Assembly (NCBI GenBank): GCA_002633115.1 | Contig: NWBJ01000085.1 | Coordinates: 1 to 49,459 of the forward strand | Direction: 5' to 3' | DNA length: 49,459 nt | Source: Muribaculaceae bacterium Zag1 | Lineage (GTDB): Bacteria > Bacteroidota > Bacteroidia > Bacteroidales > Muribaculaceae | In this document: positions 3,388 through 49,459 of the stretch, piece by piece | How positions within the stretch are numbered: position 1 is the stretch's first letter | How the letters are laid out: every line of letters starts with the position of its first letter | Made by a program: the position numbers and the translations under genes | The notes under the pieces: generated by a model | The model's database searches: none | Seen by the model: only the letters and a program-made list of their open reading frames with translations | What the model was told of the DNA's origin: nothing

Positions 3388-3389
3388 GA

Positions 3390-3430
3390 ATCATAGGCAG
3401 CCTAATGGCAATAGGATTCATAGGCAGCCT
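3390..3430. repeat. Short direct repeat after pncB
   Basis: The string TCATAGGCAGCCTA occurs twice, near 3391-3404 and 3417-3430, just before the pncB terminator. It looks like decaying or slipped intergenic sequence; no function is evident. Confidence 0.5.
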
Positions 3431-3452
3431 AGGATTCCTAATCTGATAGCTA

Positions 3453-3481
3453 AAGCGTGGCGCTTGCGCCACGCTTTTTTC
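3453..3481 (+). terminator. Rho-independent terminator of pncAB
   Basis: A GC-rich 9-11 bp stem (AGCGTGGCG / CGCCACGCT) with a tiny loop is followed by a run of T. Confidence 0.88.
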
Positions 3482-3530
3482 TGCCAAAAAATATTTTATA
3501 AAGAGGTATAGGAAATTCAGAAATAATTTG

Positions 3531-3538
3531 TACCTTTG
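3531..3538 (+). promoter_or_regulatory. -7 promoter box (TACCTTTG) for the Na+/H+ antiporter gene
   Basis: TACCTTTG lies 29 nt upstream of the chosen ATG and matches TAnnTTTG. Together with flanking bases it also fits GTANNTTTGC (3530-3539), the core used by CTnDOT-type elements, so it could be an unused integration site. Confidence 0.5.
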
Positions 3539-3567
3539 CCGCAAATTTGCAAAGAAAGGAAAAAGTC

Positions 3568-4959: not shown

Positions 4960-4960
4960 G

Positions 4961-5082
4961 GACCGTAAGGACATAAGGGACCGTAAGGACATAAGGGACC
5001 GTAAGGACATAAGAGACATAAGGACATAAGACTATCCTTTCCATCTTATGTCCTTATGTCTCTTATGTCCTTACGGTCCCTT
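4961..5082. repeat. Tandem 18-bp repeats folding into a 38-bp perfect hairpin
   Basis: The 18-bp unit GACCGTAAGGACATAAGG starts at 4961, 4979 and 4997 (the last copy diverges at its end). Bases 4993-5030 are perfectly complementary to 5045-5082, leaving a 14-nt loop. An A/T-rich tail follows, so it may stop transcription from nhaD. The arm is far longer than a terminator needs. Confidence 0.85.
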
Positions 5083-8069: not shown

Positions 8070-8864
8070 ATGAAACAATACCTCGATTTGCTCCAGCATA
8101 TTCTACGCGACGGTGTCGACAAGGCTGACCGCACCGGCACCGGCACTCGCTCTGTATTTGGCTATCAGATGCGTTTTGACCTAAGCAAGGGTTTCCCCTT
8201 GCTTACCACCAAGAAATTGCATCTCAAGTCAATCATCTATGAGCTGTTGTGGTTTCTGCGTGGCGACACCAATGTGCATTATCTGCAGGAGCATGGGGTG
8301 CGCATCTGGAATGAGTGGGCTGGACCCGATGGCGACCTGGGGCCCATCTACGGCTATCAGTGGCGCTCATGGCCTGACTACAATGGGGGCCATATCGACC
8401 AGATATCCGAGGTGATACGCCAGATCAAGGAGAATCCCGATTCGCGCCGCATCATCGTCAGCGCCTGGAATGTCGGCGACCTGGAGGCCATGCACTTGCC
8501 TCCTTGCCATCTGCTGTTTCAATTCTATGTGGCTCAGGGCAAGCTGAGCCTGCAGTTATATCAGCGCAGCGCCGACACATTTCTCGGCGTGCCTTTCAAT
8601 ATCGCCTCTTATGCCTTGCTGCTGATGATGGTGGCGCAGGTCACGGGACTTGAGCCCGGCGAGTTTATCCACACCACGGGCGACACTCATCTCTACCTCA
8701 ACCATCTCCCACAGGCCGAGCTCCAGCTCACTCGCGAACCTCGGCCGCTGCCTCGCATGCTCATCAACCCCGACGTCAAGAGCATCTTCGATTTCAAATA
8801 CGAGGATTTCCAACTCGTCGACTACGACCCCCATCCCCACATCCCCGCTACCGTATCGGTATGA
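8070..8864 (+). CDS. thyA: Thymidylate synthase
   Basis: This 264-aa protein has the exact length of E. coli ThyA, which methylates dUMP to dTMP using methylenetetrahydrofolate. The nucleophile is Cys146 in [10 protein letters not shown]. The phosphate-binding Arg in DRTGTGT, the [14 protein letters not shown] segment and the C-terminal IPATVSV (family end IKAPVAI) are all in place. The ATG at 8070 is preferred to an in-frame TTG at 8064. It overlaps folA by ATGA, the usual pairing since ThyA produces the dihydrofolate that FolA recycles. Confidence 0.97.
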
Positions 8865-9340
8865 AGATAATTGCTGCTATAACTAAGGATAGGGCGCTTG
8901 GGCGCGGCGGGGATATGCTGTACCATATCTCTGAGGATTTGAAGCGGTTTAAGGCGCTGACGATGGGGCACCCCATTGTGATGGGGCGCAAGACGTTTGA
9001 GTCTTTTCCCAAGGGGCCGCTGCCGGGGCGGCGCAATCTGGTGATTACTCGCAATGCGGGGTATCAGCGCGAGGGAATTGAGGTGTACCCATCTCTTGAG
9101 GCTGCCTTGGCAGCTTGCGGCGAGGCCGAGCCATACATCATCGGCGGTGGCGAAATCTACGCCCAGGCCCTCCCCCTGGCCTCTGAACTCGACATCACCG
9201 AGATCGACGCCCTCGCCCCCGATGCCGACACCTTTTTCCCCGAAATCTCTCCCTCCTCCTGGCTCCCAACCTCCGCCTCCCCTTGGCTCTCTACCCCCTC
9301 CGGCCTCCGCTACCGCTTCCTCACCTACACCAAAATTTAG
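8861..9340 (+). CDS. folA: Dihydrofolate reductase
   Basis: This 159-aa enzyme reduces dihydrofolate to tetrahydrofolate with NADPH. Recognisable pieces are the N-terminal [13 protein letters not shown], the catalytic acid (Asp26 in ISEDLKRF), [11 protein letters not shown], the NADPH-binding [10 protein letters not shown], and [12 protein letters not shown]. The active-site Trp common in other DHFRs is Tyr21 here. The last 30 codons are unusually rich in Ser/Pro and C, and the stop codon abuts a fragment identical to the porin gene 3' end (9339-9357). It is coupled to thyA by a 4-nt overlap. Confidence 0.95.
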
Positions 9341-9454: not shown

Positions 9455-10777
9455 TTATACCTGGGGTAGCAGGGCTCTTAGCCAGTCGGCGAGGTAGAGG
9501 GGGATGTTGAGGAGGTTGCCGGTGTGGTCGAGGTTTTTCATCGAAAAGCGAATGCGAAGGTCGGGATGATAGCGGCAATCAAATTCGGCAAAGCTCTTGC
9601 CGCTGATGCGTGTGTCAGCCTTAACCTCTATGGGTAGGAGCTTTAGACCATCCCCTACGAGAAAATCCACTTCAGCCTTGTTGCCTGAGAGAGTCCAATA
9701 ATTGGGCTTGTCGTAGCCATTGGCCAGCAATGACGACAGTACTGAGTTTTCTGCCAAGGCGCCCTTAAATTCTATAAACAATTCATTGGGAGAAAGCAGC
9801 ATTTCGGCTGGTAACCGCGACAAGCGCCTCAGCAAGCCTACATCCAACATATAGACCTTAAAGCTGGTAGTGTCTTCGTAAAACGACAATGGTATGGCTG
9901 GTTTTTCTGAAACAGCAATCTTATATATCATGCCAGCCGTAACGAGCCACTCCAATGCCAATTCATATTCGCGCGCGCGAGCTCCTTCGCGCACTACACG
10001 GAATATGAATTTCTTGTTCTCTCGGGATAATTGAGAGGGAATGGATTTCCAAATCTCTTGTATCCTGATCACATCCCTTGGTTCAACATGCTTGCTGAAA
10101 TCAGTGCTATATGATAGAAGCATCTCATCCAGTCGTGCATCGATGATGTCAGAGCCTTCGCCCTCGAGCATCGCACGAGTCACATACGGGAGGCCTCCGC
10201 AGATTTGATATCTCACGTAATGCTCACGCATCTGGTTGCAAAAGATTTCGGGTAAGGCTTCTATTTTACCTATACTATCGGCATATTGGCTCAGGGTTGG
10301 ATCAGCTGCTCTCAGGTACTCTTTAAATGTGACAGGATGCATGTTGAGCATATTCACTTTTCCCACCGGGAAAGACAATCCCTTATGGTTTATAGCTACG
10401 CCAAGTAGCGAACCGGCTGCGATGACATGATACTCGGGAGCGTCTTCTTCAAAATATTTAAGAGCAGCCAGGGCCTGAGGGCATTCCTGAATCTCATCAA
10501 AGAATATCAGGGTTTCTCCAGGATTACATGGGACTTTTGCCAGCAGCGGTAACTGTTGGAGTATGCGCGACACATCTTTGGTTGAGGCAAACAATTGGCG
10601 TGCCTCTTCGTTTTTGTCAAAATTTATCTCGGCCACATATTGATAATGAGCCTCGCCGAAATCACGAATGCTCGTGGTTTTGCCAATCTGCCTTGCTCCT
10701 TGCAATATCAAGGGCTTTCTATCCTCCTGGCCTTTCCAAGAGGCGAGCTTTTGTAATATGTCTCTCTTTATTTTCAT
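9455..10777 (-). CDS. AAA+ ATPase with DUF4143-type C-terminal domain
   Basis: This 440-aa protein belongs to the large AAA-14/DUF4143 group of bacterial ATPases of unknown role. The Walker A is GARQIGKT at residues 27-34 and the Walker B is TLIFFDEIQ with Asp94-Glu95. AAGSLLG (sensor region) and KVNMLNMHPVTFKEYL are typical. The C-terminal third contains VDFLVGDGLKLLPIEVKA, a PD-(D/E)xK-like stretch seen in DUF4143, though nuclease activity is not established. It has its own consensus promoter and begins its transcript inside a 56-bp palindrome. The unit is bracketed by 19-bp direct repeats, suggesting acquisition as a cassette. Confidence 0.88.
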   Translation of the reverse strand: MKIKRDILQKLASWKGQEDRKPLILQGARQIGKTTSIRDFGEAHYQYVAEINFDKNEEARQLFASTKDVSRILQQLPLLAKVPCNPGETLIFFDEIQECPQALAALKYFEEDAPEYHVIAAGSLLGVAINHKGLSFPVGKVNMLNMHPVTFKEYLRAADPTLSQYADSIGKIEALPEIFCNQMREHYVRYQICGGLPYVTRAMLEGEGSDIIDARLDEMLLSYSTDFSKHVEPRDVIRIQEIWKSIPSQLSRENKKFIFRVVREGARAREYELALEWLVTAGMIYKIAVSEKPAIPLSFYEDTTSFKVYMLDVGLLRRLSRLPAEMLLSPNELFIEFKGALAENSVLSSLLANGYDKPNYWTLSGNKAEVDFLVGDGLKLLPIEVKADTRISGKSFAEFDCRYHPDLRIRFSMKNLDHTGNLLNIPLYLADWLRALLPQV

Positions 10778-10784
10778 ATAAAAT

Positions 10785-10840
10785 CACCATCTATCCAATA
10801 AAAATGTGAGAATTCTCACATTTTTATTGGATAGATGGTG
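10785..10840. repeat. 56-bp perfect palindrome in the ATPase gene's 5' untranslated region
   Basis: Bases 10785-10812 and 10813-10840 are exact reverse complements with no loop, centred on GAGAATTCTC. The palindrome begins right after the -7 promoter box and ends 7 bp before the start codon. It would therefore be an operator in DNA or, once transcribed, a long hairpin covering the ribosome-binding region. Confidence 0.92.
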
Positions 10841-10872
10841 CAAAGATAAGAAAATCCTGTGGATTTTCCAAA
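10841..10872 (-). promoter_or_regulatory. Consensus promoter of the ATPase gene
   Basis: On the minus strand TTTG (10872-10869), 20 nt, and TATCTTTG (10848-10841) form a perfect Bacteroidetes promoter reading toward the ATPase gene. Confidence 0.75.
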
Positions 10873-10875
10873 TCC

Positions 10876-12060
10876 TCAGAATACGATTTGGAGGCGGGTC
10901 TGGAAGATGTTGATGGTTGTTGTGGGGAGGGAGGTTGCGCCCCAGCGGTGGGCGTAGACGTAGTTGAGGCGCAGTAGGATGTATTTGTTGACGTAGTAGG
11001 TGGCGGTGGCCGAAATGGTGTTGACGCGGCCGCCGTAGACGCCCGTGACGATTGAGCCATCCTCGCCCAATTGCTGCGCATGGCGGTCGTTGAGGCATGT
11101 GTAGTTGTACATGCCAGTGATTTCGAGCGAGCCAGCTGCTGGCGCAGCTATGCCGCCATCGGCCCAGGCATAGCGGTAATGGTCGCCGCGCACCAAGCCG
11201 CGCACCTGCACGTAGCCTCCCTGGCCAGTGAAATTGTGCATGTTCTCCTTCATATTCACGCGGTTGTAGAAATACTGCGCCTCGATGGCCACCGGGCCGC
11301 GAGCCAAGAGGAGCTCTGGGGTGAATTTCCACATATAGCGGGTATGGGTCAGTTCGGCCTCAGCCGCTACCACCTTTACCACGCGAGTGGGGAAAATGCC
11401 AGCCATCGTGAAGCCAGCCTGAGGCATTTCGTCGTCATGGCTCTGAGGGGTGGTGAAGGCTCCAGAGATGCCAAGCTGGAAGAAGGTGCCATCGTCAGTG
11501 ATCACTGGGCGCCATACCTGGCGAGTGATGAAGCCGTAGCCCTCGCGGTCGAGTTCGTCGGGGGTCTTTTTGATTGAGTTGGGTTCGCCGTGGGCTGAGA
11601 ATGTAGCCAGATACCTCGGGGCGTTGTACTCGCCCATGATGCCGAGTTGGCGCGAGGCGTTGAAGACGGTGTTGCTGAGCGGCTCGTCAAAACTGGCTTT
11701 CATGGATGAACTCGTTGCCGACTGCAATCCGTATTGGTGCACAAAGTTGCCTATCCTCAGGAAATATCGGGGATTGGGATTATACTGGATATAGATATCC
11801 TTGAGGCCGAGCTTTTGCATGGCATAGCCGATATCGATCTTGGCGTTCCATCGGCCATAGACGGCCTTTACGCCCATGCGCACATCAGGGACAGCCACGC
11901 CATTGTCAAACATTTCGTGGCCCTGCCCGGCATACAGGGCGCCATCGATGAAGATGCGCCCGGTGGGCGTCACCTTGATTTGCGGCTCATCGCTCTGTGC
12001 CACAGCAGCGCACGCGACAGCCATCGCCAATATCAGTAGAGAGATGCGTCTATTCAACAT
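10876..12060 (-). CDS. OprP-like outer-membrane porin
   Basis: This 394-aa protein has a signal peptide (cleavage probably after AAVAQ) and alternating aromatic/polar strands typical of a 16-18 strand porin of the phosphate-selective porin O/P group. It ends with a C-terminal Phe (LQIVF), the recognition signal for outer-membrane barrel assembly. Blocks such as LKDIYIQYNPNPRYFLRIGN and RQLGIMGEY resemble this family. Substrate specificity cannot be told. Its 3' end is the source, or the sibling, of the 19-bp repeat downstream of folA. Confidence 0.75.
   Translation of the reverse strand: MLNRRISLLILAMAVACAAVAQSDEPQIKVTPTGRIFIDGALYAGQGHEMFDNGVAVPDVRMGVKAVYGRWNAKIDIGYAMQKLGLKDIYIQYNPNPRYFLRIGNFVHQYGLQSATSSSMKASFDEPLSNTVFNASRQLGIMGEYNAPRYLATFSAHGEPNSIKKTPDELDREGYGFITRQVWRPVITDDGTFFQLGISGAFTTPQSHDDEMPQAGFTMAGIFPTRVVKVVAAEAELTHTRYMWKFTPELLLARGPVAIEAQYFYNRVNMKENMHNFTGQGGYVQVRGLVRGDHYRYAWADGGIAAPAAGSLEITGMYNYTCLNDRHAQQLGEDGSIVTGVYGGRVNTISATATYYVNKYILLRLNYVYAHRWGATSLPTTTINIFQTRLQIVF
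10878..10896. repeat. 19-bp direct repeat, right copy (true porin 3' end)
   Basis: Identical to 9339-9357. Here it encodes the last codons of the intact porin gene. Confidence 0.8.
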
Positions 12061-12112
12061 AGCTTGAAATGGTTATTATACACGTCTATATAATAAAACC
12101 CACCTCACCCTT

Positions 12113-13024: not shown

Positions 13025-14155
13025 ATGGCAAGAACAAAAAAATCAGAATCGGTACCTGTCCGCATCCGCTTCAAGCAGCTTAAGGACGGCAACCAATCCA
13101 TATATCTGGATATCTATACCGACCGCAAACGCAGATATGAGTTTCTTAAACTCTTCCTTGTCCCTGAAATATCACAGGAGGCAAAGGAGAGGAATGCCAA
13201 CACGCTCAAGGCTGCCAATGCCATCAAGGCACAGCGTATTCTTGACATCACCAACAAGAAGCCGGCGACAATCCTTTCGGACAAAGCCCGGACACCGCTG
13301 ATAGAATGGCTCGATGAATACGCTGAGTCCGGAGAGAAAAAAGGGCGCAGAGCCCTTGTCGATCATGTACACGCAGTATCAGTGTGCCTGAAGGCTTATA
13401 ATCCGCGGATAAGATTGTATGAGGTCGATAAGGACTTTCTTCAGGGATTTATAGAATATCTCGGCACCCGGATGACGAGATTGACAAAAAAGCCGCTGGC
13501 AAAGAAAACCATATCCGGTTACTGCGGATATATACGGGCGGCCCTCAACTATGCCGTGGATCTGGAAATTCTTGGCGACAATCCTTTATTGTCATTCGAC
13601 TGGGCTTCCATACAGGGGGAACGCAAAAAACGCGAGTATCTGACCATTGAAGAGGTGCAGACGCTTATTGACACTCCATGTAGGAGTCCAAGGGTGAAGA
13701 CGGCGTTTCTTTTTTCTTGTTTTTGCGGGCTACGTTACAGTGATGTCAAAGGACTGCGTTGGAAAGACGTAATCGAGGAAAACGGCAAGACTCATTTGGA
13801 ATTGCGTCAGCAAAAGACGGGGAAGGTAATCTACCTGCCTTTGAGCCTACAGGCGCAGAAGTTCATGCCGGGAGAGAAAGGCAATCCTGACGATGCCGTC
13901 TTTGATGTCCCCACGCTGAGCGATTGCGACCATGTGCTGAAAACGTGGACTTCCAAGGCCGGCATTACCAAACGGGTGTCCTATCACGTGAGCCGTCACG
14001 CCTTTGCGACGATGACGCTGACAATGGGCGCAGACCTCTATACCACCAGCCAGTTGCTCGGACACTCGGATGTGGAAACGACCCAGGTTTACGCAAAAAT
14101 CGTGGACAAAAAGAAGGTGGATGCAGTTTATTTGATTGACAGACTATTTGATTAA
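13025..14155 (+). CDS. Tyrosine recombinase (ICE integrase 1)
   Basis: This 376-aa integrase would cut and rejoin DNA at the attachment sites. The catalytic set is complete: Arg237 (CGLRYSD), His321-x-x-Arg324 (HVSRH), His347 (LLGHSD) and Tyr356 (QVYAK). Residues 10-60 form an arm-binding domain and about 90-185 the core-binding SAM-like domain. It is followed after 5 bp by a paralogous integrase, a tandem arrangement common at one end of Bacteroides mobile elements. Its promoter overlaps the candidate attachment core, so excision could remove or change its expression. Confidence 0.93.
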   Translation: MARTKKSESVPVRIRFKQLKDGNQSIYLDIYTDRKRRYEFLKLFLVPEISQEAKERNANTLKAANAIKAQRILDITNKKPATILSDKARTPLIEWLDEYAESGEKKGRRALVDHVHAVSVCLKAYNPRIRLYEVDKDFLQGFIEYLGTRMTRLTKKPLAKKTISGYCGYIRAALNYAVDLEILGDNPLLSFDWASIQGERKKREYLTIEEVQTLIDTPCRSPRVKTAFLFSCFCGLRYSDVKGLRWKDVIEENGKTHLELRQQKTGKVIYLPLSLQAQKFMPGEKGNPDDAVFDVPTLSDCDHVLKTWTSKAGITKRVSYHVSRHAFATMTLTMGADLYTTSQLLGHSDVETTQVYAKIVDKKKVDAVYLIDRLFD

Positions 14156-14160
14156 GAGAT

Positions 14161-15306
14161 ATGGGCAGACAGAAGAAGCAGGTAGTAATGAAGGAGCCGA
14201 TAAGGCTCCGGGAGCAGGTGCTGAAAAACGGCAACCGTTCGTTATATCTGGATATATACCACAACGGCAAGCGGACTTACAAGTTCCTCAAGCTGTACCT
14301 CGTTCCAGAGACCGACACACCGTCGAAAATCATGAATGCCAACACGCTGGCACAGGCGAACGCCATCAAGGAGGAAATGATACTTGACCTTACCAACCGT
14401 ATCGCGGGCATAAAGGACAAATCACACAAGGCCCGGATGCCGTTCTGCGCATGGATGGGCATCTATGCCAAGAATGCGAAGAAAAGCTGTGCGCAATCAT
14501 CAAAAGCGTGGATAGACAGGACGGTCAAAGAGATCACGGATTATGATTCAGAGACTACACTTGCCGATGTGGACAAGGAATACCTTACGAGGTTTATGGA
14601 ATACCTTGTCAGCCGTTCCGCACATAATACAGACCGGAAGAAAATGACAAAAAGCACCGTATTCCTGTATTTATGCTATGTCAGAGCCGCTCTTAACTAT
14701 GCGGTGCGTGAAAGCGTGATACCCAAAAGCCCGTTCAAGGGAATAACCAGAGCCTCGCTGTCCATCAAGGAGCACAAGCGCGAGTATCTGACCGTAGAGG
14801 AAATAAAACGGCTTATCGCTGCTCCCTGCTACCGTGAGGACATCAAGGGTGCGTTCCTGTTCTCCTGTTTCAGCGGGCTGCGCATCTATGACATCATGAA
14901 TCTCCGTTGGAAAGACATTGTGAGAACCGCTACCCACTGGCAGGTTGAGATAATCCAGTATAAAACCGGTGTCGAGCTGTTCCTGCCGCTGAACATGAAC
15001 GCCCGGAAATGGCTGCCGGAAAAGCCGGAGGACGCCACGGCGGAGGACAGGGTGTTTCCCCGGCTGACAAGGAACTACGGGCAGAGCCTCGGAACATGGA
15101 TGGAGAATGCCGGAATCACGAAAGACATCACTTTTCACGCGGCGAGGCACAGCTTCGCAACGCTCTGTCTTACAGCGGGTATAGACATTTACACCACCAG
15201 TCAGTTGCTCGGACATACCACTATCCGGCACACCCAGCGTTACGCCCGGATCATCAATACGAAGAAAGACGAAGCCGTCTCGTTGTTTGACGGTGTATTT
15301 GAATGA
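14161..15306 (+). CDS. Tyrosine recombinase (ICE integrase 2)
   Basis: This 381-aa protein is clearly paralogous to the preceding integrase; LKNGNRSLYLDIY here matches LKDGNQSIYLDIY there. Catalytic residues are Arg241 (SGLRIYD), His326-x-x-Arg329 (HAARH), His352 (LLGHTT) and Tyr361 (QRYAR). The gene starts 5 bp after integrase 1 ends, so the pair is one transcript. Paired recombinases may act together or one may handle excision; this cannot be told from sequence. Confidence 0.92.
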   Translation: MGRQKKQVVMKEPIRLREQVLKNGNRSLYLDIYHNGKRTYKFLKLYLVPETDTPSKIMNANTLAQANAIKEEMILDLTNRIAGIKDKSHKARMPFCAWMGIYAKNAKKSCAQSSKAWIDRTVKEITDYDSETTLADVDKEYLTRFMEYLVSRSAHNTDRKKMTKSTVFLYLCYVRAALNYAVRESVIPKSPFKGITRASLSIKEHKREYLTVEEIKRLIAAPCYREDIKGAFLFSCFSGLRIYDIMNLRWKDIVRTATHWQVEIIQYKTGVELFLPLNMNARKWLPEKPEDATAEDRVFPRLTRNYGQSLGTWMENAGITKDITFHAARHSFATLCLTAGIDIYTTSQLLGHTTIRHTQRYARIINTKKDEAVSLFDGVFE

Positions 15307-19393: not shown

Positions 19394-20638
19394 CTAATTA
19401 TAATACGGATGGTCATCAAGGGAAAGCTCATATTCTGTCGGCCCACGATGACTGTCCGCTTCTATGATTTTATCAAGATGCCGCATTATATATTCCGCTT
19501 CCTTTTTCTCCGCAGGAATGTGGACAGCCGTATAGTACGGCCGTTTTCCGGGAATGGAATGCCGGTAGCAGAATGTCATGCTGGAATCATCATAAATTAA
19601 CGTGCGGTCAGGTATCTGTTCGACGGTATCATTCTCATACCTCTTTTTCGTCCTGTGCCGCTTTTCCGTGTTATCGTCTTCCTCTTTCCTGTCCGTCAGA
19701 TGTCTGTCACAGCGGGCTGAAGTCTCTGTGATGCCTTGTCCATGCGTTACAGGCATATCGCAGGTGTTACGGGGTGGCACATCGTCACCGGCGATTTCTT
19801 CGGAAAGAGCCGTGAGAAAAGTCATTGCTTTTCCCGGCATGGAAAAAGTACCAGCGAAGAAAACCGCTCCCGACACATGGCCGCCCGCTGCCTCGATTTG
19901 CTTTCTTAACTGCCGGAGGCTCTTGCCGGAGGTAATGACATCATCCACCACGATGACATCCTTGCCTGTCAAATCGCAGCGGATCTCAAAGTTCCGTTCA
20001 ATGACGGCATCGGAACGGTTTTTCTGAAGATGCAGGCTGTCCCTTTCTCCAAGATAAGTGTAATAATCAAAGCCGTTTTCAAGTTGCGGACACCGTCGGT
20101 CGATGTAACCGGCAATATGCCGGAACCTGACCCAATACTTCCACCACGCGCTGCAGGGCATGAACATCACGACTGTCCCCTCATGGGGTTTCAGACAATC
20201 AATGCCTTTCCGGAAGAAATCTATGCCGTCGTTCATGCCATCCTTGAACGCCAGGACGCTTCGGGTGAAATCCTCTTGTGTCACGCTCAAATGCTTCCTG
20301 TATCTTGCGGGAAAATAGAAACCGGAAAAGACACATGGTATCTTTTTTATTTTGAAGGCAGTCAGAGGACGCCGGTCAGAGAATGAAGCCGGAGAAGAAA
20401 AGATATACAGCAAACGGGAATCCGTATTGCCGGCCAAAACTCCTTTTCGGGCATACCACGCCCTAATATCATCGGATGGCGCAAATTTAGCGGCGGCATA
20501 AAAAGCCTGCCCAGCTTTTCTACGCCAGAAACGGACACACACAATGAGAATAAGCACCGACATCAATCCTGACAGGAGCAATATGGCCTTGAGACCATAT
20601 AAGTCCCATGCAATAAGATTTATGGTTGTCGATACCAT
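19394..20638 (-). CDS. Membrane-anchored phosphoribosyltransferase-domain protein
   Basis: This 414-aa protein begins with one or two membrane helices (about residues 8-37), followed by a basic stretch. Around residues 150-260 it has a type I phosphoribosyltransferase fold: the PRPP-binding loop VIVVDDVITSGKS spans 228-240 with acidic pair Asp232-Asp233. FMPCSAWWKYWVRF precedes it, reminiscent of ComFC-like proteins. The C-terminal 140 residues are polar, with no fold I recognise. It is convergent to the primase and divergent in style from the conjugation genes. A role in DNA uptake or nucleotide metabolism is possible but not shown. Confidence 0.65.
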   Translation of the reverse strand: MVSTTINLIAWDLYGLKAILLLSGLMSVLILIVCVRFWRRKAGQAFYAAAKFAPSDDIRAWYARKGVLAGNTDSRLLYIFSSPASFSDRRPLTAFKIKKIPCVFSGFYFPARYRKHLSVTQEDFTRSVLAFKDGMNDGIDFFRKGIDCLKPHEGTVVMFMPCSAWWKYWVRFRHIAGYIDRRCPQLENGFDYYTYLGERDSLHLQKNRSDAVIERNFEIRCDLTGKDVIVVDDVITSGKSLRQLRKQIEAAGGHVSGAVFFAGTFSMPGKAMTFLTALSEEIAGDDVPPRNTCDMPVTHGQGITETSARCDRHLTDRKEEDDNTEKRHRTKKRYENDTVEQIPDRTLIYDDSSMTFCYRHSIPGKRPYYTAVHIPAEKKEAEYIMRHLDKIIEADSHRGPTEYELSLDDHPYYN

Positions 20639-42726: not shown

Positions 42727-43332
42727 ATGAACAAGAACAATAGAAAGGATCATTTGTATGCTGTAGCATTTAAGTTGTTCCTTACAAAACATTACGACGC
42801 TGTCAGTATATCTGACATCGAGAACGAGTCGGGTATGACTCGTGGTGCAATTACTTATTATGGCAAAGACAAACGGGGATTATTTTATGATGTTGTACGC
42901 CATTATTTGATTGATTCGCAAAATCTTGATTTCAAACTAAAAAAGACAGATTTTGTAAGCCTCAGTGATTTTATTGAAGAATACGTGCGCGGTAGTCAAG
43001 AAACAATGGCAAGATTTCATCAAATAGACTCCAAGGTCGAGAATGGAAGCAGGGCATATATGGCTCTGATATTGCAGATTTGTGATTTTTTCCCGGATTT
43101 ACATGAGCAGTATCTTGAAAATCGGAACAAAGAACTGTTAAAATGGATAGAAATAATTCAAAAAGCTGTCGGGAATAAAGAAATCAGGGCAGGTATTGAT
43201 GTGATTACTACTGCAAAACTGTTTATGAACGTATTTTATGGTCAATCGTATCTTGATGCGTTGAGTGCTGGTCTTAATACGGTGGAATTAAGACTGCAAT
43301 TCCAAAATATCTACAGATTTATTAAAAATTGA
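42727..43332 (+). CDS. TetR-family regulator 1
   Basis: This 201-aa protein has the TetR DNA-binding domain at residues 8-55 (ISDIENESGMTRGAITYYGKDKRGLF) and an all-helical ligand domain behind. The family usually represses nearby genes until a small molecule binds. It has its own consensus promoter and lies upstream of the ketoacyl synthase in the same direction. The region is much more AT-rich than the conjugation operon, suggesting a different origin. Confidence 0.9.
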   Translation: MNKNNRKDHLYAVAFKLFLTKHYDAVSISDIENESGMTRGAITYYGKDKRGLFYDVVRHYLIDSQNLDFKLKKTDFVSLSDFIEEYVRGSQETMARFHQIDSKVENGSRAYMALILQICDFFPDLHEQYLENRNKELLKWIEIIQKAVGNKEIRAGIDVITTAKLFMNVFYGQSYLDALSAGLNTVELRLQFQNIYRFIKN

Positions 43333-43366
43333 TAGCAAAATTCTTCTGTAAATGGATGTTTTGTTG

Positions 43367-43374
43367 TACTTTTG
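43367..43374 (+). promoter_or_regulatory. -7 promoter box (TACTTTTG) before the ketoacyl synthase gene
   Basis: TACTTTTG fits TAnnTTTG, 29 nt upstream of the start. The surrounding 43366-43375 also fits GTANNTTTGC, the integration core. Confidence 0.5.
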
Positions 43375-43402
43375 CAAAAAGATAACATTCATTATGTAAT
43401 TT

Positions 43403-44539
43403 ATGATTTCATCCGTTTACTTAAACAGAATCGCCTCGTTCTTACCAAACTCTCCTGTCAATAATGACGAAATGGAGTTGTACTTAGGGCTTGTTAATGG
43501 AAAAGCGTCCAGGGTAAAACCAATTATTCTTCGCCAAAATGGTATCAAGACACGATATTATGCTCTGACGAAAGACCAGCAAATCACACATACCAATGTT
43601 GATTTAGCAAAGTGTGCTATTGACGGACTTGGATTGCCCAAGGATAAGCTTAATAGTATTCAATTTCTATCGTGCGGAACATCCATGCCGGACCAATATA
43701 TGCCATCCCATGCCGCGATGGTTCATGGAGCCGTTTTTAATCACCCGATGGAGATAGCCTCACTTGCCGGTGTCTGCATGTCCGGGTTGATGGCATTGAA
43801 AACTGCTTTCATGTCAATAGCTTCCAGAAATTCAGAGAATGCCGTCTGTGTTGCTTCAGAATTGATTTCACCCACCATGCTCTCCAAATTCTTCAATGAA
43901 GAGGTAGAGCATAGGAAATTGATAGAGGAGAACCCGTATATCGCTTTTGAGAAAGATTTCCTCCGTTTCATGCTGTCAGACGGTGCCGCCGCATTGTATC
44001 TGAGCAATACTCCCGAAGAGGATTTCTGTTTCAGCATCGAATGGATGCGGACTTTCTCATACGCGAACAAGCAGCCGGCATGTATGTATATGTGGGCAGA
44101 AAAGGAAGCTGACGGAAGTCTTCAAGGATGGAAGACATTTAGTGCAAAAGAACTGGAGCAAAAATCTGTTTGGGCACTCAAACAGGATGTGCGTCAGTTG
44201 AACACATACGGTATGTCCCTGTTCGTGGATGCCGTTGAGACATCCTTGAAACAGGCAAAGATTGATACAGACGACATTACATACGTAATACCGCATCTGT
44301 CATCCATGTATTTCTACAATATCCTTGAGCAGGAGTTTAAGCAGAGGAAGATAGACTTGCCGACAACAAAATGGTATACCAATCTTACCAGTGTCGGCAA
44401 TATGGGTTCTGCCTCACCTTTTGTCGCGCTGAACGGCTTGATAGAAACAGGATGCCTGAAAAAAGGTGATACCATATTGTTGATAGTACCCGAAAGTGGT
44501 CGTTTTTCATGCGGAACGGCTTTATTAAGGTGTATTTAG
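43403..44539 (+). CDS. Stand-alone beta-ketoacyl-ACP synthase III (KAS III) family enzyme
   Basis: This 378-aa protein has the thiolase-type KAS III fold and full catalytic triad: Cys125 (LAGVCMSG), His298 (VIPHLSS) and Asn333 (SVGNMGSAS). FMLSDGAAALYLS and ESGRFSCGTALLR are family blocks. KAS III enzymes join an acyl-CoA or acyl-ACP with malonyl-ACP, or condense two beta-keto units in resorcinol and pyrone formation. No carrier protein, reductase or other fatty-acid gene is near, which argues against housekeeping FabH. Flanked by two TetR genes, it may make a small signal or specialised lipid. It resembles synthases of dialkylresorcinol-type clusters, an inference only. Confidence 0.85.
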   Translation: MISSVYLNRIASFLPNSPVNNDEMELYLGLVNGKASRVKPIILRQNGIKTRYYALTKDQQITHTNVDLAKCAIDGLGLPKDKLNSIQFLSCGTSMPDQYMPSHAAMVHGAVFNHPMEIASLAGVCMSGLMALKTAFMSIASRNSENAVCVASELISPTMLSKFFNEEVEHRKLIEENPYIAFEKDFLRFMLSDGAAALYLSNTPEEDFCFSIEWMRTFSYANKQPACMYMWAEKEADGSLQGWKTFSAKELEQKSVWALKQDVRQLNTYGMSLFVDAVETSLKQAKIDTDDITYVIPHLSSMYFYNILEQEFKQRKIDLPTTKWYTNLTSVGNMGSASPFVALNGLIETGCLKKGDTILLIVPESGRFSCGTALLRCI

Positions 44540-44570
44540 TTGTGTATTTGGAGAATATGTAGTACCTTTG
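44540..44570 (+). promoter_or_regulatory. Promoter for the small ORF and second TetR gene
   Basis: TTG at 44540-44542, 20 nt, then TACCTTTG at 44563-44570. It starts right at the end of the ketoacyl synthase gene. Bases 44562-44571 also fit the CTnDOT-type core. Confidence 0.6.
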
Positions 44571-44615
44571 CAACAGAAATAAAAATTAAATAGGATTTCA
44601 TATTTGTCTTTCGCC

Positions 44616-44635
44616 GTGAAAATGTGGAAGTTTTT
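44616..44635 (+). repeat. 20-nt inverted repeat, right arm
   Basis: GTGAAAATGTGGAAGTTTTT, the inverted copy of 42575-42594. The two arms lie near the edges of the TetR1-KAS III module, about 2.0 kb apart. Confidence 0.75.
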
Positions 44636-44756
44636 AGGCTGGGAACAGATGGATATGACGCTAATGCCGTATATGGGTACGGGGTTGTCATGTCTTTTCC
44701 AGCGGGTCTTCCACAACTTTCACAGCGAGACATGTGACCTCGTACCTTTTACATGA
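44622..44756 (+). CDS. Putative 44-aa small ORF coupled to the second TetR gene
   Basis: The frame starts MWKFLGWEQMDMTLM and ends VPFT. Its stop overlaps the TetR2 start as ATGA. It lies behind a good promoter with a 5' leader of about 50 nt. It has no recognised domain. Translational coupling argues for a real leader or regulatory peptide, while the shared repeat at its start argues for caution. Confidence 0.35.
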   Translation: MWKFLGWEQMDMTLMPYMGTGLSCLFQRVFHNFHSETCDLVPFT

Positions 44757-45289
44757 ACAAGCCACGGCCACAAACTCAACAGAACCGAATAGACATCCTG
44801 AAGCAATGTTATCGCCTAATGGCCCAGGGCACATGGGATGCCATATCAGTCACTGAACTGGAAAAGAATATCTCTCAAACGAGAGGTGCGATATTCTATT
44901 TCAATAAGAACAAGAAAAATTTGTTCTTGAATATGATTGACGAATTGTTTTTTCCTGTATTTGTTTTATCAGATGATGAGAAAGCGAGACTGTCTGTATG
45001 TTCCGAGGCTCAATTTCATACGACCTATAAAACATCATTTGACAGGGTTAAAGAAGACTTGGAGAACAATTATAATTTACCGAATGCAGCACAAGCAGTA
45101 TTCAACATAATCATGCAGGCCCAAAAACATTACACCGGTTTTGATAATATTTTAAAGACAGCTATAAATCGTGAATCTAATTTTATTACGGAACTGACGA
45201 GGCATAATGGTTTTGAACAGTTTTGCTATAATAGTTTTCTAAGTCGAAGTATTGGTGATTTATTTGTAAAATCATTACAGCTTTCATAA
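44753..45289 (+). CDS. TetR-family regulator 2
   Basis: This 178-aa protein has the TetR helix-turn-helix at about residues 13-60 (ISVTELEKNISQTRGAIFYFNKNKKNLF) and a shorter helical C-terminal domain. It is a distant paralogue of regulator 1: TRGAITYYGKDKRGLF there, TRGAIFYFNKNKKNLF here. It is convergent with the RiPP export operon, separated by a terminator-like hairpin. Confidence 0.88.
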   Translation: MNKPRPQTQQNRIDILKQCYRLMAQGTWDAISVTELEKNISQTRGAIFYFNKNKKNLFLNMIDELFFPVFVLSDDEKARLSVCSEAQFHTTYKTSFDRVKEDLENNYNLPNAAQAVFNIIMQAQKHYTGFDNILKTAINRESNFITELTRHNGFEQFCYNSFLSRSIGDLFVKSLQLS

Positions 45290-45414: not shown

Positions 45415-47607
45415 TTAACATCCTAATTCCAATTGATCTCTTACCAAGTTAAAATATGCTCCTTTGCTTTTAATTAAATCTGAGTGTGTTCCCATTTCAA
45501 TAATTCGTCCTTTATCTAAAAATACAATATTATCAGCATTTTTTACCGTACTCAATCTGTGGGCTATTATTATAACAGTTCTACCCTTGTAAAACTCAAA
45601 GAGATTCCCCATTATTTGTTTTTCGTTAGTTGCATCAAGAGAAGATGTCGCTTCATCGAAAAATATGTACTCAGGTTTATTGAAGATTGCTCGCGCAATA
45701 AGAATGCGCTGAATTTGTCCACCGCTTAATCCTATTCCATTATTCCCGATTCGAGTATTGTATCCGCGAGGAAGGTTCATGATAAAGTCATGAGCACAAG
45801 CCAATTTTGCTGCGCATATAACATCATCACAGTCTGCTCCAGAGTATGCTAATGCGATATTTTCAGCAACAGTTCCACTATAGATATATCCTGTCTGCAT
45901 CACGACTCCACACTTTTTACGCCATAAATCTGTATTGCAGGAATCTAAGCTAACATTTCCCAATGTAATGCAACCGTGGGTAGGTTTGTAAAAACTCAAT
46001 ATCAATTTCATCAATGTTGTTTTTCCACTTCCGCTGGCACCAACAATGGCAGTTATTTTCCCCTTGGGAATAATAAGGTTAATATCATGTAGAACTAATG
46101 GATTGTATGATCCCTCATATTTGAATGATAGATTTTTACATACAATATTCCCATAATTTTCCTGACTTTTAGCATTATGAAGATTATTCTCGTCATTACG
46201 ACGATATACCTCGTTAACTCGTTCTATCGCAATTTTTGTTTCAACGACCTCACGCGACAAACTAATGACAACATTTGTTGCATTTGTCAACTGACCGATT
46301 ATATATGTGACTGTCATCATCACACCAATTGTAATTTCTTCCTGTATGACAGAATAGGCAGCAATAACTAAAATCGTCAACTGGGTAAATTGTGTTATGA
46401 AATTTATGCCTGATGACATATATAAAGAATTGAAGAGTGCCTTTAGAGAAATTTTGTTGATTTTAGTCTGGACCTTCTCCCAATCTGCGACCTTTTTATC
46501 ATGGGCATTATTTATTTTGATTTCGGGCATACCGCTGACGAGCTCATAATTCAAATTTTTGATTTCTGTGTCAAGAGAGAATTTTGAATAATTTAGGACT
46601 CTAAGTCTATCAAGATAAATTTTAGATACGAATATGGACAACATATTAAATGCGATAAATATGGCAAATATGCGCCAATCGTAATAAGTCAAAATGATTG
46701 AAAAGACAAAGAAATTAATCAGAGCTAATGATGTTGATTGTAATTGATTTGTCAAAAGGTTCTGAATTCTGCGTAAATCCTCCATCCGTTGAAGCAAATC
46801 CGTGTTAAGCCTCGTGTCGAAAAAAGACAGTGGTAATCGGATTATTTTATGAAGGAATTTGGTTAACAGGTCAATACTTACGTTAAAACCTATCTTCGTA
46901 AGGATTACATTGTTAATCGCACCAGCAATACTATATCCAAGGAAACAGAGCAACTGGCCAGACATAAGCATAATAACGAGGGATAGGTCTTTGTTCCCAA
47001 TACCTAAATCAACAGCCTTTTGTAGAAAGAAAGGCATACACCAATTGGCAATTAATACAAAAACCGATAAGATTGCTACCCAATAAAAGTGTTTATGATA
47101 TTTTTTCACAGACTCTAATAAAGGAGACAGTAACGCTTTTGAAATTTCTTTGTATGATTGTTTTTCTGATTCTATTTCATAAAAATTTTCAGTAGGTTCA
47201 ATAAGTATGGCATAGCCTTTAGCTTCAGTTCCGCGCCAGTTCTCCAAAAATTCAGGCTCAGACATAACAATTTTTCCATACTGTGGATCGGCAATATAAT
47301 ACAACCTTCCTTTTCGAGTTTCTTTTATATTGTATAATACAACAAAATGATTTTGCCTCCAATGTATAATTGTTGGCAATGGGAGGATTTTAATTTTTTC
47401 CTGATCCACCATACATGGGATTGCGGTTAGCTTTAATCCCTGACATCCAGACACTATGTCGTCACCACAAACTCCGAGTCTTGTTACATTACATAAGTCT
47501 CTTAGTTTATATATTGAGACACGTTTACCGTAATAGAAGGAGACCATTTGGATACATGCTGGTCCGCAATCCATGCCTTCAAGTTGTCGAAATACTTTAA
47601 ATCCCAT
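45415..47607 (-). CDS. Peptidase-containing ABC transporter (C39 peptidase, RiPP exporter)
   Basis: This 730-aa protein has an N-terminal C39 cysteine peptidase (residues 1-130): Gln8, Cys14 (GMDCGPACIQM), His87 (QNHFVVLY) and Asp107 (IADPQYG) are all present. A six-helix ABC exporter domain follows (about 165-450). The ATPase domain has Walker A GASGSGKTT (near 530), signature LSGGQ (near 635) and Walker B YIFFDEAT. Such proteins cut peptide precursors after a double Gly and export the product. Its start overlaps the maturase stop by one base (TAATG), so the genes are coupled. The precursor upstream has the expected Gly-Gly. Confidence 0.95.
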   Translation of the reverse strand: MGFKVFRQLEGMDCGPACIQMVSFYYGKRVSIYKLRDLCNVTRLGVCGDDIVSGCQGLKLTAIPCMVDQEKIKILPLPTIIHWRQNHFVVLYNIKETRKGRLYYIADPQYGKIVMSEPEFLENWRGTEAKGYAILIEPTENFYEIESEKQSYKEISKALLSPLLESVKKYHKHFYWVAILSVFVLIANWCMPFFLQKAVDLGIGNKDLSLVIMLMSGQLLCFLGYSIAGAINNVILTKIGFNVSIDLLTKFLHKIIRLPLSFFDTRLNTDLLQRMEDLRRIQNLLTNQLQSTSLALINFFVFSIILTYYDWRIFAIFIAFNMLSIFVSKIYLDRLRVLNYSKFSLDTEIKNLNYELVSGMPEIKINNAHDKKVADWEKVQTKINKISLKALFNSLYMSSGINFITQFTQLTILVIAAYSVIQEEITIGVMMTVTYIIGQLTNATNVVISLSREVVETKIAIERVNEVYRRNDENNLHNAKSQENYGNIVCKNLSFKYEGSYNPLVLHDINLIIPKGKITAIVGASGSGKTTLMKLILSFYKPTHGCITLGNVSLDSCNTDLWRKKCGVVMQTGYIYSGTVAENIALAYSGADCDDVICAAKLACAHDFIMNLPRGYNTRIGNNGIGLSGGQIQRILIARAIFNKPEYIFFDEATSSLDATNEKQIMGNLFEFYKGRTVIIIAHRLSTVKNADNIVFLDKGRIIEMGTHSDLIKSKGAYFNLVRDQLELGC

Positions 47608-48950
47608 TACATTTTAGTTAGTGACACCAGTCTTTTGACGGCTTCAAGTTTTGATTTTTCATCAAAACGATATAAACAATACTCTTCGTTGAAATCTTTG
47701 AATGTTTGGACACATCCTCCACCACAAACAGGAAAAAGAATACACTCTTTGCATACGTGATTGAAATCAGTTCGCTTTCTGAAGATTCTGCTATTAAGGT
47801 CATCCTTCCATTCAATAGTACCATCTGTCTTAAGTATCCCTTCTCGATTATCGTCATTAAATGCCCTTGCACAACACTTAAATACATCCCCATTATAATT
47901 AATTGAAGCAGCATTTACATAAGAATGTTTGCATGGATTTCTGACCGAGTCAATTGAATTTATCGGCATAACGTTCATTCCTAATGAAGCTGCATATTTT
48001 ATAGACTCGTTACTTTTTGCAGTAACAATACAGTCCGATTTATTTATCGAGATATTGTCACAGGCTCTTTTCGTAACGGCATTTGTTGCATCTTGCCAAA
48101 TACGTACTGGAGTGTATATTATACGTTTACGCTCTTCCTCGCTGCAATCTTTGAACTCATCTAATATTCTTATCAAATCTTCCGCATTTTTATGAGTATA
48201 ATTTACTCGGACCGTTACGAATATCTCTTTTTCAAGAAGTTTTTTCACATTCTTAATTAGAAGTTGATATGACTTAGGATGTATTTTGCTGAATCTGGAC
48301 TTGTTATGATTATCACCATATCCGTCAAATGTTATTTGGAAAGCTGTAAATATGCCACAATTCTTAAAAAAAGAAAGCATTTCATCATTCAAGAGTGCAC
48401 CATTTGTAGTTATTTGAACGGTTCTGAAGATATCTCTGCCTTTTGTTTTCTCTGAAAATGCTTTTAGAACCGGCTTTATCACCTCATTAAATTTCAAGAG
48501 CGGTTCTCCTCCGAAAAAATAAAGATGGAATCGTTTCAATTGAGGGTTTTTACATAAAATATTGTCAATAAGGGATATTGTTGATTTTATGGTCCTGGGA
48601 GACATTTCTGAATCTTTTACTTTCGATTCATAACAATACCAGCAATGAAAATTGCAGTCCAAAGTTGGATTTATGGTTAAATGGTATTGCGAAGGATCAG
48701 CCAAACTATCCAATCTCAACTGTTCTACGGCTTCTATCTCGTCAACATTATTATGAATGACAAATCCACCATCAACAAGAGCTTTAAAAAAACTCGGATG
48801 AAGAGAGGATAAGTCATCAATGCATGTGTCGTATTCAGATAATATCTCTGCAAGTTCTGAACTTAAATACAGAGTCTGGCAGGTATAGGTATTATAGAGA
48901 ATATATCCCGATTCTTGAGAATATATTACATTGTATCTGCTTGTTTTCAT
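47607..48950 (-). CDS. Radical SAM/SPASM peptide maturase
   Basis: This 447-aa enzyme carries the radical SAM cluster motif CNFHCWYC (Cys99, 103, 106), the SAM-binding FFGGEP (145-150), and a full SPASM domain: Cys340, Cys359, Cys400-x2-Cys403-x5-Cys409-x3-Cys413 and Cys425. SPASM maturases of this size install thioether or carbon-carbon links in ribosomal peptides. The first 85 residues resemble a leader-binding (RRE-like) region. The 77-aa Cys-rich peptide encoded just upstream on the same strand is the evident substrate. Crosslink type cannot be told from sequence. Confidence 0.93.
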   Translation of the reverse strand: MKTSRYNVIYSQESGYILYNTYTCQTLYLSSELAEILSEYDTCIDDLSSLHPSFFKALVDGGFVIHNNVDEIEAVEQLRLDSLADPSQYHLTINPTLDCNFHCWYCYESKVKDSEMSPRTIKSTISLIDNILCKNPQLKRFHLYFFGGEPLLKFNEVIKPVLKAFSEKTKGRDIFRTVQITTNGALLNDEMLSFFKNCGIFTAFQITFDGYGDNHNKSRFSKIHPKSYQLLIKNVKKLLEKEIFVTVRVNYTHKNAEDLIRILDEFKDCSEEERKRIIYTPVRIWQDATNAVTKRACDNISINKSDCIVTAKSNESIKYAASLGMNVMPINSIDSVRNPCKHSYVNAASINYNGDVFKCCARAFNDDNREGILKTDGTIEWKDDLNSRIFRKRTDFNHVCKECILFPVCGGGCVQTFKDFNEEYCLYRFDEKSKLEAVKRLVSLTKM

Positions 48951-48967
48951 AAATAGAATGTTTTACA

Positions 48968-49024
48968 GGTGCCATAGCCCGAAGGCTATGACACCCTACG
49001 TAATACCTGAAATAAAAATTCAGG
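48968..49024 (-). promoter_or_regulatory. Two hairpins between precursor and maturase genes
   Basis: On the minus strand a 12-bp stem with one mismatch (48968-48979 with 48984-48995) is capped by a UUCG tetraloop closed by C-G, an exceptionally stable form. Before it, CCTGAA (49006-49011) pairs with TTCAGG (49019-49024). Such structures after a precursor gene stabilise its 3' end or let only a share of transcripts continue, giving more precursor than enzyme. Confidence 0.7.
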
Positions 49025-49031
49025 GATTGAT

Positions 49032-49265
49032 TTAACATGCGCACTGACAATTACAAGCACAGGCATAACCAAGAACGCCGACCAATACCGAGTTCATAAT
49101 CATGGTCTGTAATTGTGACTGCTGTTGCTGTACCTGAAGTTGGTTCTGACCAACTTGATCCTGACCGCCAAAAGGAGCAAATCCTCCGGTCATTGTCCCT
49201 GCGTTGTCTTTACGGAGAGGTTCTATCTCCTTCAGAATGTCTGAAAAATTAGATTTCTTTTTCAT
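49032..49265 (-). CDS. RiPP precursor peptide with double-Gly leader and C-terminal CxC repeats
   Basis: This 77-aa peptide has a charged leader (residues 1-28) ending in TMTGG, the processing signal of C39 peptidases. Cleavage after Gly28 gives a 49-residue core starting FAPFGG; a second GG at 33-34 is an alternative. The core has a Gln-rich part (35-53), a hydrophobic stretch (MIMNSVLVGVLGYA) and ends with five alternating cysteines, Cys69-71-73-75-77. Maturase and exporter genes follow on the same strand. I know no family with this exact layout. Cysteines every second residue suggest thioether links or metal binding. Confidence 0.85.
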   Translation of the reverse strand: MKKKSNFSDILKEIEPLRKDNAGTMTGGFAPFGGQDQVGQNQLQVQQQQSQLQTMIMNSVLVGVLGYACACNCQCAC

Positions 49266-49320
49266 TGTGACAAATGTTTAAAGGTTTTACAATATGTTTA
49301 CTATTTTCCGGAAAATCAAT

Positions 49321-49459
49321 TCATATTCTAACTTGCATTGAAAGCATTATGTTCCGACCGCGTATGCGATACATATAGTCTGTTTCACTAAGTAAGCCAT
49401 AGCTGGCATAACGATATTCTTTTTTATTTAATATGTAGGGTGTCCAAAATTTTGTGACA
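49321..49459 (-). CDS. C-terminal end of an outer-membrane beta-barrel protein (partial)
   Basis: A minus-strand frame enters at the window edge and ends with a stop at 49321-49323 after 45 codons. It reads FWTPYILNKKEYRYASYG at its start and RGRNIMLSMQVRI at its end: alternating polar and hydrophobic residues closing a barrel, as in TonB-dependent receptors or OMP_b-brl families of Bacteroidetes. It is 55 bp upstream of the RiPP precursor in the same direction, so the operon promoter is probably outside the window. It might carry the product across, or take it up through, the outer membrane. Confidence 0.6.
   Translation of the reverse strand, partial: VTKFWTPYILNKKEYRYASYGLLSETDYMYRIRGRNIMLSMQVRI

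Follow-up and report, generated by a model that had tools for sequence, protein, structure and literature searches.

Does the operon that closes one contig of Muribaculaceae bacterium Zag1 encode a modified peptide, and if so, of which kind? The window, meaning the whole stretch of DNA analysed, is the entire contig C85 of the source genome (NWBJ01000085.1 of assembly GCA_002633115.1; 49,459 nucleotides). Its minus strand, read from the contig end at 49459, holds a 45-residue open end (49458-49321), a 77-residue open reading frame (ORF), a radical S-adenosylmethionine (SAM) gene and the gene of a C39 exporter. An initial annotation, made from the letters alone, had called this run a probable new operon for a ribosomally synthesised and post-translationally modified peptide (RiPP). 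Our analysis indicates that a RiPP operon is real here and that its precursor is of a rare, definable subtype inside a broad family. With a probability of about 0.72, we read the operon from its sequence as a member of a broad, unnamed RiPP family of Bacteroidota, of a subtype ending in alternating cysteines (the CxC tail), whose peptide would be crosslinked under leader guidance, cleaved after Gly28 and exported. Three adjacent, open reading frames carry this reading:

49032..49265, minus strand: predicted RiPP precursor, 77 aa, with leader 1-28 and core 29-77; an ORF with GG27-28 then F29, V60/V62/V64 and C69/C71/C73/C75/C77.
47607..48950, minus strand: radical SAM/SPASM peptide maturase, 447 aa; Pfam match, 3 + 7 cluster cysteines and an N-terminal domain (about 1-85; three strands, three helices).
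45415..47607, minus strand: C39 peptidase-containing ABC exporter (PCAT), 730 aa; Pfam match and Q8/C14/H87/D107.

The precursor (49265-49032) has Gly-Gly pairs at 27-28 and 33-34, and its only cysteines are residues 69, 71, 73, 75 and 77, the last residue, giving the tail CACNCQCAC. The chance that five cysteines placed randomly over 77 positions all stand two apart is 3.5e-6. Gly-Gly leaders carry hydrophobic residues at −4, −7, −12 and −15; at positions −15, −12, −7 and −4 before GG28 the window precursor has I, L, A and M, in keeping with that pattern. The Gly-Gly leader end and the five alternating cysteines had been noted from the start and can be read directly, and the 49-residue product proposed then has the length of the predicted core. 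The frame gains support from L044 (related loci are given by such numbers), in a genome from a different family within the order, where a precursor 42% identical to this one stands immediately before the gene of a related enzyme.

The enzyme (48950-47607) matched PF04055 at E 1.6e-14. Its CX3CX2C motif (C99-x3-C103-x2-C106) and its seven SPASM cysteines (C340, C359, C400, C403, C409, C413 and C425) are kept in 34 of 34 aligned sequences, the window's counted, bearing out the statement that all SPASM cysteines are present; the Pfam SPASM model scored 15.5 bits, below its cut-off of 21.5. An AlphaFold model built from 31 sequences had a mean confidence (pLDDT) of 87, with N-terminal strands at 7-12, 15-20 and 25-29 and helices at 31-39, 44-50 and 52-60 in a block of pLDDT 86-96; presumably, these strands and helices resemble a RiPP recognition element. 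The top Foldseek matches were 8vpo (TigE), the closest overall fold with the N-terminal domain aligned, and 5why/5wgg (thioether bond formation by title, which we take to be CteB), followed by SuiB and SkfB. The enzyme profile matched 5wgg at E 4e-31 and aligned with 8vpo over positions 4-401, and since that alignment begins at position 4, the N-terminal domain is common with a solved maturase. The best NCBIfam models were TIGR04463 ('rSAM_vs_C_rich'; 148 bits, cut-off 525) and CefB NF038107 (139, cut-off 600), named for Cys-rich or Cys-repeat targets, followed by TIGR04334 (134, cut-off 600) and PapB NF047865 (122, cut-off 340). All four scores are far under the cut-offs, placing the enzyme outside these families. 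With ranthipeptide and sactipeptide maturases (CteB 5wgg, SkfB 6efn, Clo7bot TIGR04334, PapB NF047865) it has in common the radical SAM and SPASM domains, the N-terminal domain and a Cys-rich substrate, but its identity to them in fold alignments is 16-18%. The cysteines of PapB substrates are spaced Cx3D, unlike the C-x-C of the window.

The exporter (47607-45415) combines Peptidase_C39 (E 2.4e-27) with ABC membrane and ATPase domains in Pfam, and aligned over 6-722 with 4ry2, an 'ABC-type bacteriocin transporter'. Q8, C14, H87 and D107, presumably the C39 catalytic residues, are all in place as first reported, as are Walker A and LSGGQ. With leader residues before GG28, a maturase and a C39 exporter all present, the call of a RiPP operon stands. 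A Gly-Gly leader and a C39 exporter would also suffice for a class II bacteriocin of the ordinary, unmodified type, as PMC10352776 describes for bacteroidetocins, and the radical SAM gene would then be a chance neighbour. This is very improbable here: the radical SAM gene is recurrently paired with such precursors, and its stop and the exporter start have one base in common.

The steps proposed for the operon follow from its gene set and from what SPASM maturases and PCATs do, namely leader recognition, radical modification, cleavage and export. The N-terminal domain of the SPASM enzyme would bind the 28-residue leader, and the enzyme, with Fe-S clusters and SAM, would install crosslinks in the core; thioethers formed by the alternating cysteines of the tail are the likeliest. 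Cleavage after Gly28 and export of the 49-residue product would then fall to the C39 exporter, and an outer-membrane barrel would be expected to complete export or serve as a receptor. That the product is a microcin-like antagonistic peptide is a guess.

How widely does this gene set recur? Counting the source genome throughout, relatives of the enzyme were found at E ≤ 0.001 in 77 of 146 close genomes, many of them distant SPASM proteins matched in the core only, and then in 18 of 393 genomes of the order (1e-30), 5 of 395 of the class (1e-40) and 2 of 395 of the phylum (1e-50). The relatives read in Bacteroidota are 26-41% identical to the window enzyme, and the source genome itself holds two further copies, C27 and C57 (about 30% identity). 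Plasmid-borne relatives occur in Flammeovirga, Rhizosphaericola and Parabacteroides; five tandem precursors lie at L035 1944-3466 on the Rhizosphaericola plasmid, typed mobilizable. No relatives were found in viral contigs.

The neighbourhoods of 37 enzyme genes were surveyed, drawn from the stronger hits without taking in all of them (G002:C36, G048:C41 and G069:C1 are among those left out). Under a fixed rule (45-125 codons, a Gly-Gly starting at 13-46 and followed by two or more cysteines, at most 1 kb upstream or 0.6 kb downstream of the enzyme gene), a fitting ORF lay beside 29 of the 37, compared with 24 of 153 other large ORFs at the same loci (Fisher p 6e-13). Inspection by eye raised the count to 32 of 37 by adding L047, L048 and L049, with GS or AG ends. 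A PCAT lay within 6 kb on the same strand at 25 of 36 loci (the two enzymes of L045 share one), and a full-length barrel at 16 of 36, four of which had supplied the barrel queries. In the source genome, a near-identical, secreted-looking 126-aa protein stands upstream of both precursors at C27 and C57 (L056, L057), and similar small ORFs occur at L061, L062, L018 and L020. At L089, the precursor lies downstream of the enzyme gene, and the enzyme gene is overlapped by that of a glycosyltransferase protein (2609-5008) whose LanC-like part scores below threshold.

Within this family, five precursors could be aligned as a CxC-tail subtype: those of the window, L044, L045, L105 and L043. G27, G28, F29, V64, C69 and C71 (window numbering) are common to all five, and the layout is a GGF site, a V/I-rich stretch, a short turn and alternating cysteines. 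L044, L045 and L105 have V-x-V-x-V, a turn of four or five residues and three or four alternating cysteines (four after a turn of four in L044; three after a turn of five in L045 and L105). In the window, V-L-V-G-V is followed by L-G-Y-A and five cysteines, and in L043, I-N-I by Y-Q and two. The V-x-V alternation was above chance in L044 (reached in 64 of 5000 shuffles), L045 (166) and L105 (72), and within chance in the window (1633) and L043 (4283). An exporter lies within 6 kb at four of the five loci; L044 has just a partial match about 7 kb upstream. In an enzyme tree of 36 sequences the window grouped with L045 and L105 at a support of 87/72, which is under the starred level; L044 and L043 fell in another group. 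The CxC-tail label needs two changes on this tree, with which a single origin of the subtype would still be compatible.

The subtype looks rare in the genomes searched. A profile of the five precursors, run against 223 genomes, recovered four of the five themselves; the other 11 matches were weaker (E 0.012-0.1), and none of the four inspected among these 11 had a Gly-Gly leader. The window precursor matched in 46 of 397 family genomes at E ≤ 1, its own included; of five further loci inspected from precursor searches (L063, L065, L066, L071, L081), L065 had a family precursor without the CxC tail. Plasmids yielded no new CxC-tail precursor when queried with those of L044 and L105. TIGR04149 and FibroRumin TIGR04135 also describe Gly-Gly-leader or Cys-rich radical SAM targets, but the window precursor matched neither at E 10, and L045 (10.2 of 25 bits) and L044 (15.9 of 45 bits) stayed below the cut-offs. 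A second precursor-like ORF lies at L044 (5418-5648, minus strand), and its leader LNKETIANL seems to us to resemble those of class I lanthipeptides.

Two wider motifs were set aside. Across the family 44 precursors were hand-picked for Gly-Gly-like ends and cysteines, with L018, L020 and L022 coming from weaker hits outside the 37 enzyme genes, so their composition is not independent evidence; GGF was found in 16 of 45 hand-picked precursors. Removal of seven near-duplicates (four of L035, three of L051) left 37 cores for motif counts. CxC appeared in 13 of these against 14.6 in shuffles, showing no family-wide excess, although other layouts of it occur in L050, L051, L091 and L008. Asn three residues before Cys was frequent when pooled (64 observed, 25.2 expected, z 8.8) and weak per core (23 of 37 against 17.8, reached in 34 of 1000 shuffles); repeats inflate it, and it is missing in L043, L044 and L045 (L105 was outside the test).

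What, then, would the enzyme do to the tail? Cys-rich substrates and the nearest solved relatives make thioethers at the Cys tail the most likely product, with somewhat better than even odds on the sequence. A rather unlikely alternative is that the enzyme modifies residues other than Cys, such as those of V-x-V-x-V, while the cysteines remain free, pair as disulfides or become oxidised after export. It draws on the invariant V64, on the clear V-x-V-x-V of L044, L045 and L105, and on TigE as the top fold match. On the other side, 5wgg is the better sequence-profile match, and Cys rather than Val is common to the cores of the wider family, whose precursors had been picked for Cys. To our knowledge, neither the TigE nor the TvgB substrate has a Cys array. 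Valine cyclopropanation by a SPASM enzyme (TvgB, cyclopropylglycine) is published in PMC9062424, where TvgA has a TVGG repeat, unlike the Cys tail of the window. Thiopeptide-like azoles from Cys were dropped as a candidate, with no YcaO match in the 17 window proteins scanned with Pfam.

If thioethers are indeed formed, it is conceivable, though doubtful, that one enzyme zips CxC-tail precursors into a beta-hairpin with a cross-strand thioether ladder. In the window the modelled pairs would be V64-C69, V62-C71 and V60-C73, and possibly N58-C75 and I56-C77. A like register can be drawn elsewhere: three cysteines face V,V,V in L045 and L105, the four of L044 face V,V,V,N, and the two of L043 face I,I. 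The AlphaFold model of the window precursor has strands at 60-65 and 68-73, compatible with this register at low confidence (pLDDT 50, most tail residues below 50), and five sequences are few. Since the alternation is at chance in the window and L043, the hairpin idea rests on the relatives and on this low-confidence model. We know of no such i, i+2 beta-ladder among sacti- and ranthipeptide topologies.

Alternatively, the Cys tail could serve to bind metal, which would make the peptide a metallophore or metal carrier and the barrel its receptor; CxCxC arrays bind soft metals in other proteins. Barrels near L049 and L043 do match a TonB-receptor plug, but among seven proteins of 42.7-49.5 kb there was no match to a metal transporter, sensor or reductase. 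A sub-threshold copper-transport (MctB) match was noted about 25 kb off, at 19394-20638. Also against this reading, many family cores are Asn/Gly-rich with scattered cysteines. We consider this quite unlikely.

Between the precursor and the crosslinking enzyme proposed to act on it lies a further recurrent feature:

48967..48996, minus strand: RNA hairpin with a 13-bp stem and a UUCG loop, within the 81-nt gap between precursor and radical SAM gene; relatives have hairpins of other sequences there.

This gap folded with z −7.8. When 15 precursor-enzyme gaps were folded, 13 reached z ≤ −2.7, the exceptions being L056 (−1.4) and L043 (+0.6, where the gap is longer and its first 150 nt were folded). 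The 100 nt before the enzyme start reached z ≤ −3 in 17 of 29 loci, compared with 4 of 90 randomly drawn large ORFs from the same loci; eight of the 37 loci had been excluded beforehand, having the precursor downstream or none upstream. The 12 misses take in L044 and L034, whose hairpin lies further up the gap, and L087, where the two genes abut. The sequences thus vary while the structure recurs. Hairpins in bacteriocin operons keep the precursor in excess, and by analogy this stable hairpin probably keeps precursor mRNA above enzyme mRNA. A literature search turned up nothing useful on such a role in these operons.

Is the operon complete? Upstream of the precursor, two features remain before the contig end, beyond which the sequence is unreadable:

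49321..49435, minus strand: 3' remnant of the gene preceding the precursor, some 38 codons long; a barrel by synteny only.
49436..49459, no strand assigned: apparent insertion-sequence (IS) end (TAGGGTGTCC...; a putative assignment), repeated at many contig ends of the same genome.

The initial annotation had placed an outer-membrane barrel here and every needed part in the operon. The first is not borne out by the 45-residue open end, which has no model at E 1 in NCBIfam or Pfam and no significant match among 15 large proteins beside related loci (best phmmer E 0.069); the second was an overstatement, the presumed barrel being a remnant cut by the apparent IS. A barrel is still the best guess for the upstream gene, by synteny only. 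PF14905 barrels stand directly upstream of precursor and enzyme at L045 and L034, and a barrel at L050 was detected by phmmer only; the nearer of two adjacent upstream ORFs at L105 matches PF14905 and the other matches nothing. Upstream of these two ORFs, L105 also encodes a protein of 610 aa (10232-12064, minus strand) that matches aminotransferase class I/II.

The first 23 bases of the open end fall in the apparent IS end. Among the matches listed, its 24 bases recur in 20 other copies of 22-39 bp in the same genome, and for at least 12 of these the distance to a contig end is no more than one base. The flanks differ in the eight pieces inspected, and one copy runs on into a charged coiled-coil ORF that could be the start of a transposase. 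Most simply, an IS would form the end of the contig and leave about 38 codons at the 3' end of the gene that precedes the precursor. The 24-bp element may mark a high-copy IS that fragments the assembly.

The operon might therefore be a decaying passenger whose upstream gene and promoter were removed by the IS, with no product made in this strain. In favour of this, 170 bp separate the apparent IS end from the start codon of the precursor, and the remnant upstream is about 38 codons long. A query with the L043 barrel found no relative in the source genome, a single query being a weak test of absence, whereas the three remaining genes are open with their catalytic residues. We regard decay as on the unlikely side, though the operon may be silent in the source strain.

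As for the surroundings, the region at 13-42 kb resembles Bacteroidales conjugative transposons in its genes, which encode a TraG ATPase, TraM, a DUF4138 protein, a coupling protein and two tyrosine integrases; at the DNA level, parts of the window are about 79% identical to records of Bacteroides, Phocaeicola and Parabacteroides. From 42.5 kb on, the operon included, the genes have 35.0-38.5% G+C compared with 53.0%, and third-position G+C is 29% in the enzyme compared with 72% in the coupling protein. The AT-rich composition of the operon (35.0%) and its place next to conjugation genes were correctly described at the outset, and this low G+C suggests that the operon is separately acquired cargo on a transferable-looking element of this gut-type bacterium. 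The two integrases stand in tandem at 13025-15306, upstream of the conjugation genes. At 42727-45289, next to the operon, two TetR-like regulators flank a DarB-type ketosynthase (DarB 483 of 550 bits; StlD/DarB 473 of 450 bits), with no partner enzyme among the scanned ORFs of that interval.

Several points weigh against reading the locus as a member of a crosslinked-peptide family. The product and the reaction are predicted from the genes, and no immunity gene was recognised among the seven proteins of 42.7-49.5 kb scanned with NCBIfam and Pfam. The enzyme may target non-Cys residues, the precursor model is of low confidence (pLDDT 50), and the apparent IS end may have removed the promoter or broken the barrel. 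The loci surveyed were stronger hits and not a random sample, and a control rate of 16% means that the ORF rule is not specific. A precursor had been expected always to sit beside the maturase; this is mostly so (29 of 37 by rule, 32 by eye), but not always, as L062 and L088 had no candidate beside the enzyme. L052 has a Cys-rich ORF that is a leaderless fragment, and L053 a 42-residue downstream ORF ending CGCP without Gly-Gly. At L086, an ORF of 131 aa (8585-8980) lies 1.3 kb downstream, outside the rule; it has Gly-Gly, two cysteines and a leader that is long and acidic, and possibly represents a different leader type in the same family.

How new is such an operon? As an operon kind it is not, the enzyme family being widespread and radical SAM enzymes with Gly-Gly precursors and PCATs being already described in Bacteroidales in PMC10352776; what remains of the claim to novelty is the Cys-tailed subtype, of which, and of whose chemistry, no study was found in titles and abstract openings. 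In 1,136 Bacteroidales genomes that source counts 1,340 areas of interest, the majority of them radical SAM; it reports PCATs associated with Gly-Gly precursors, some clusters having an outer-membrane protein without a membrane fusion protein, and aminotransferase genes in BGC7 and BGC8. The window resembles its BGC1, 2 and 6-8 in radical SAM maturase, Gly-Gly leader, C39 PCAT and host order, and BGC6-8 have the outer-membrane protein without the fusion protein; by contrast, BGC6-8 add YcaO, BGC2 has a membrane fusion protein, and BGC1 exports by PCAT alone. The available text mentions no CxC-tail array, the comparison being by description rather than by precursor sequences. Likewise, the available part of PMC9062424 counts 22 unexplored SPASM pathways and describes the motifs Aro-x-x-Asn, Asp-Cys, H(Y)NR and His-Xaa-Ser, with no CxC array. 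A literature search combining CxC, radical SAM and C-terminal precursor turned up just SkfB work.

The family occurs across Bacteroidota, also on plasmids, and here beside conjugation genes, and searching for the hairpin that precedes the enzyme gene might lead to further such clusters. Should the chemistry be confirmed, the subtype would offer a compact substrate with up to five evenly spaced cysteines and one enzyme with which to follow how a SPASM enzyme chooses crosslink partners; a natural series, with two, three, four or five cysteines, already exists.

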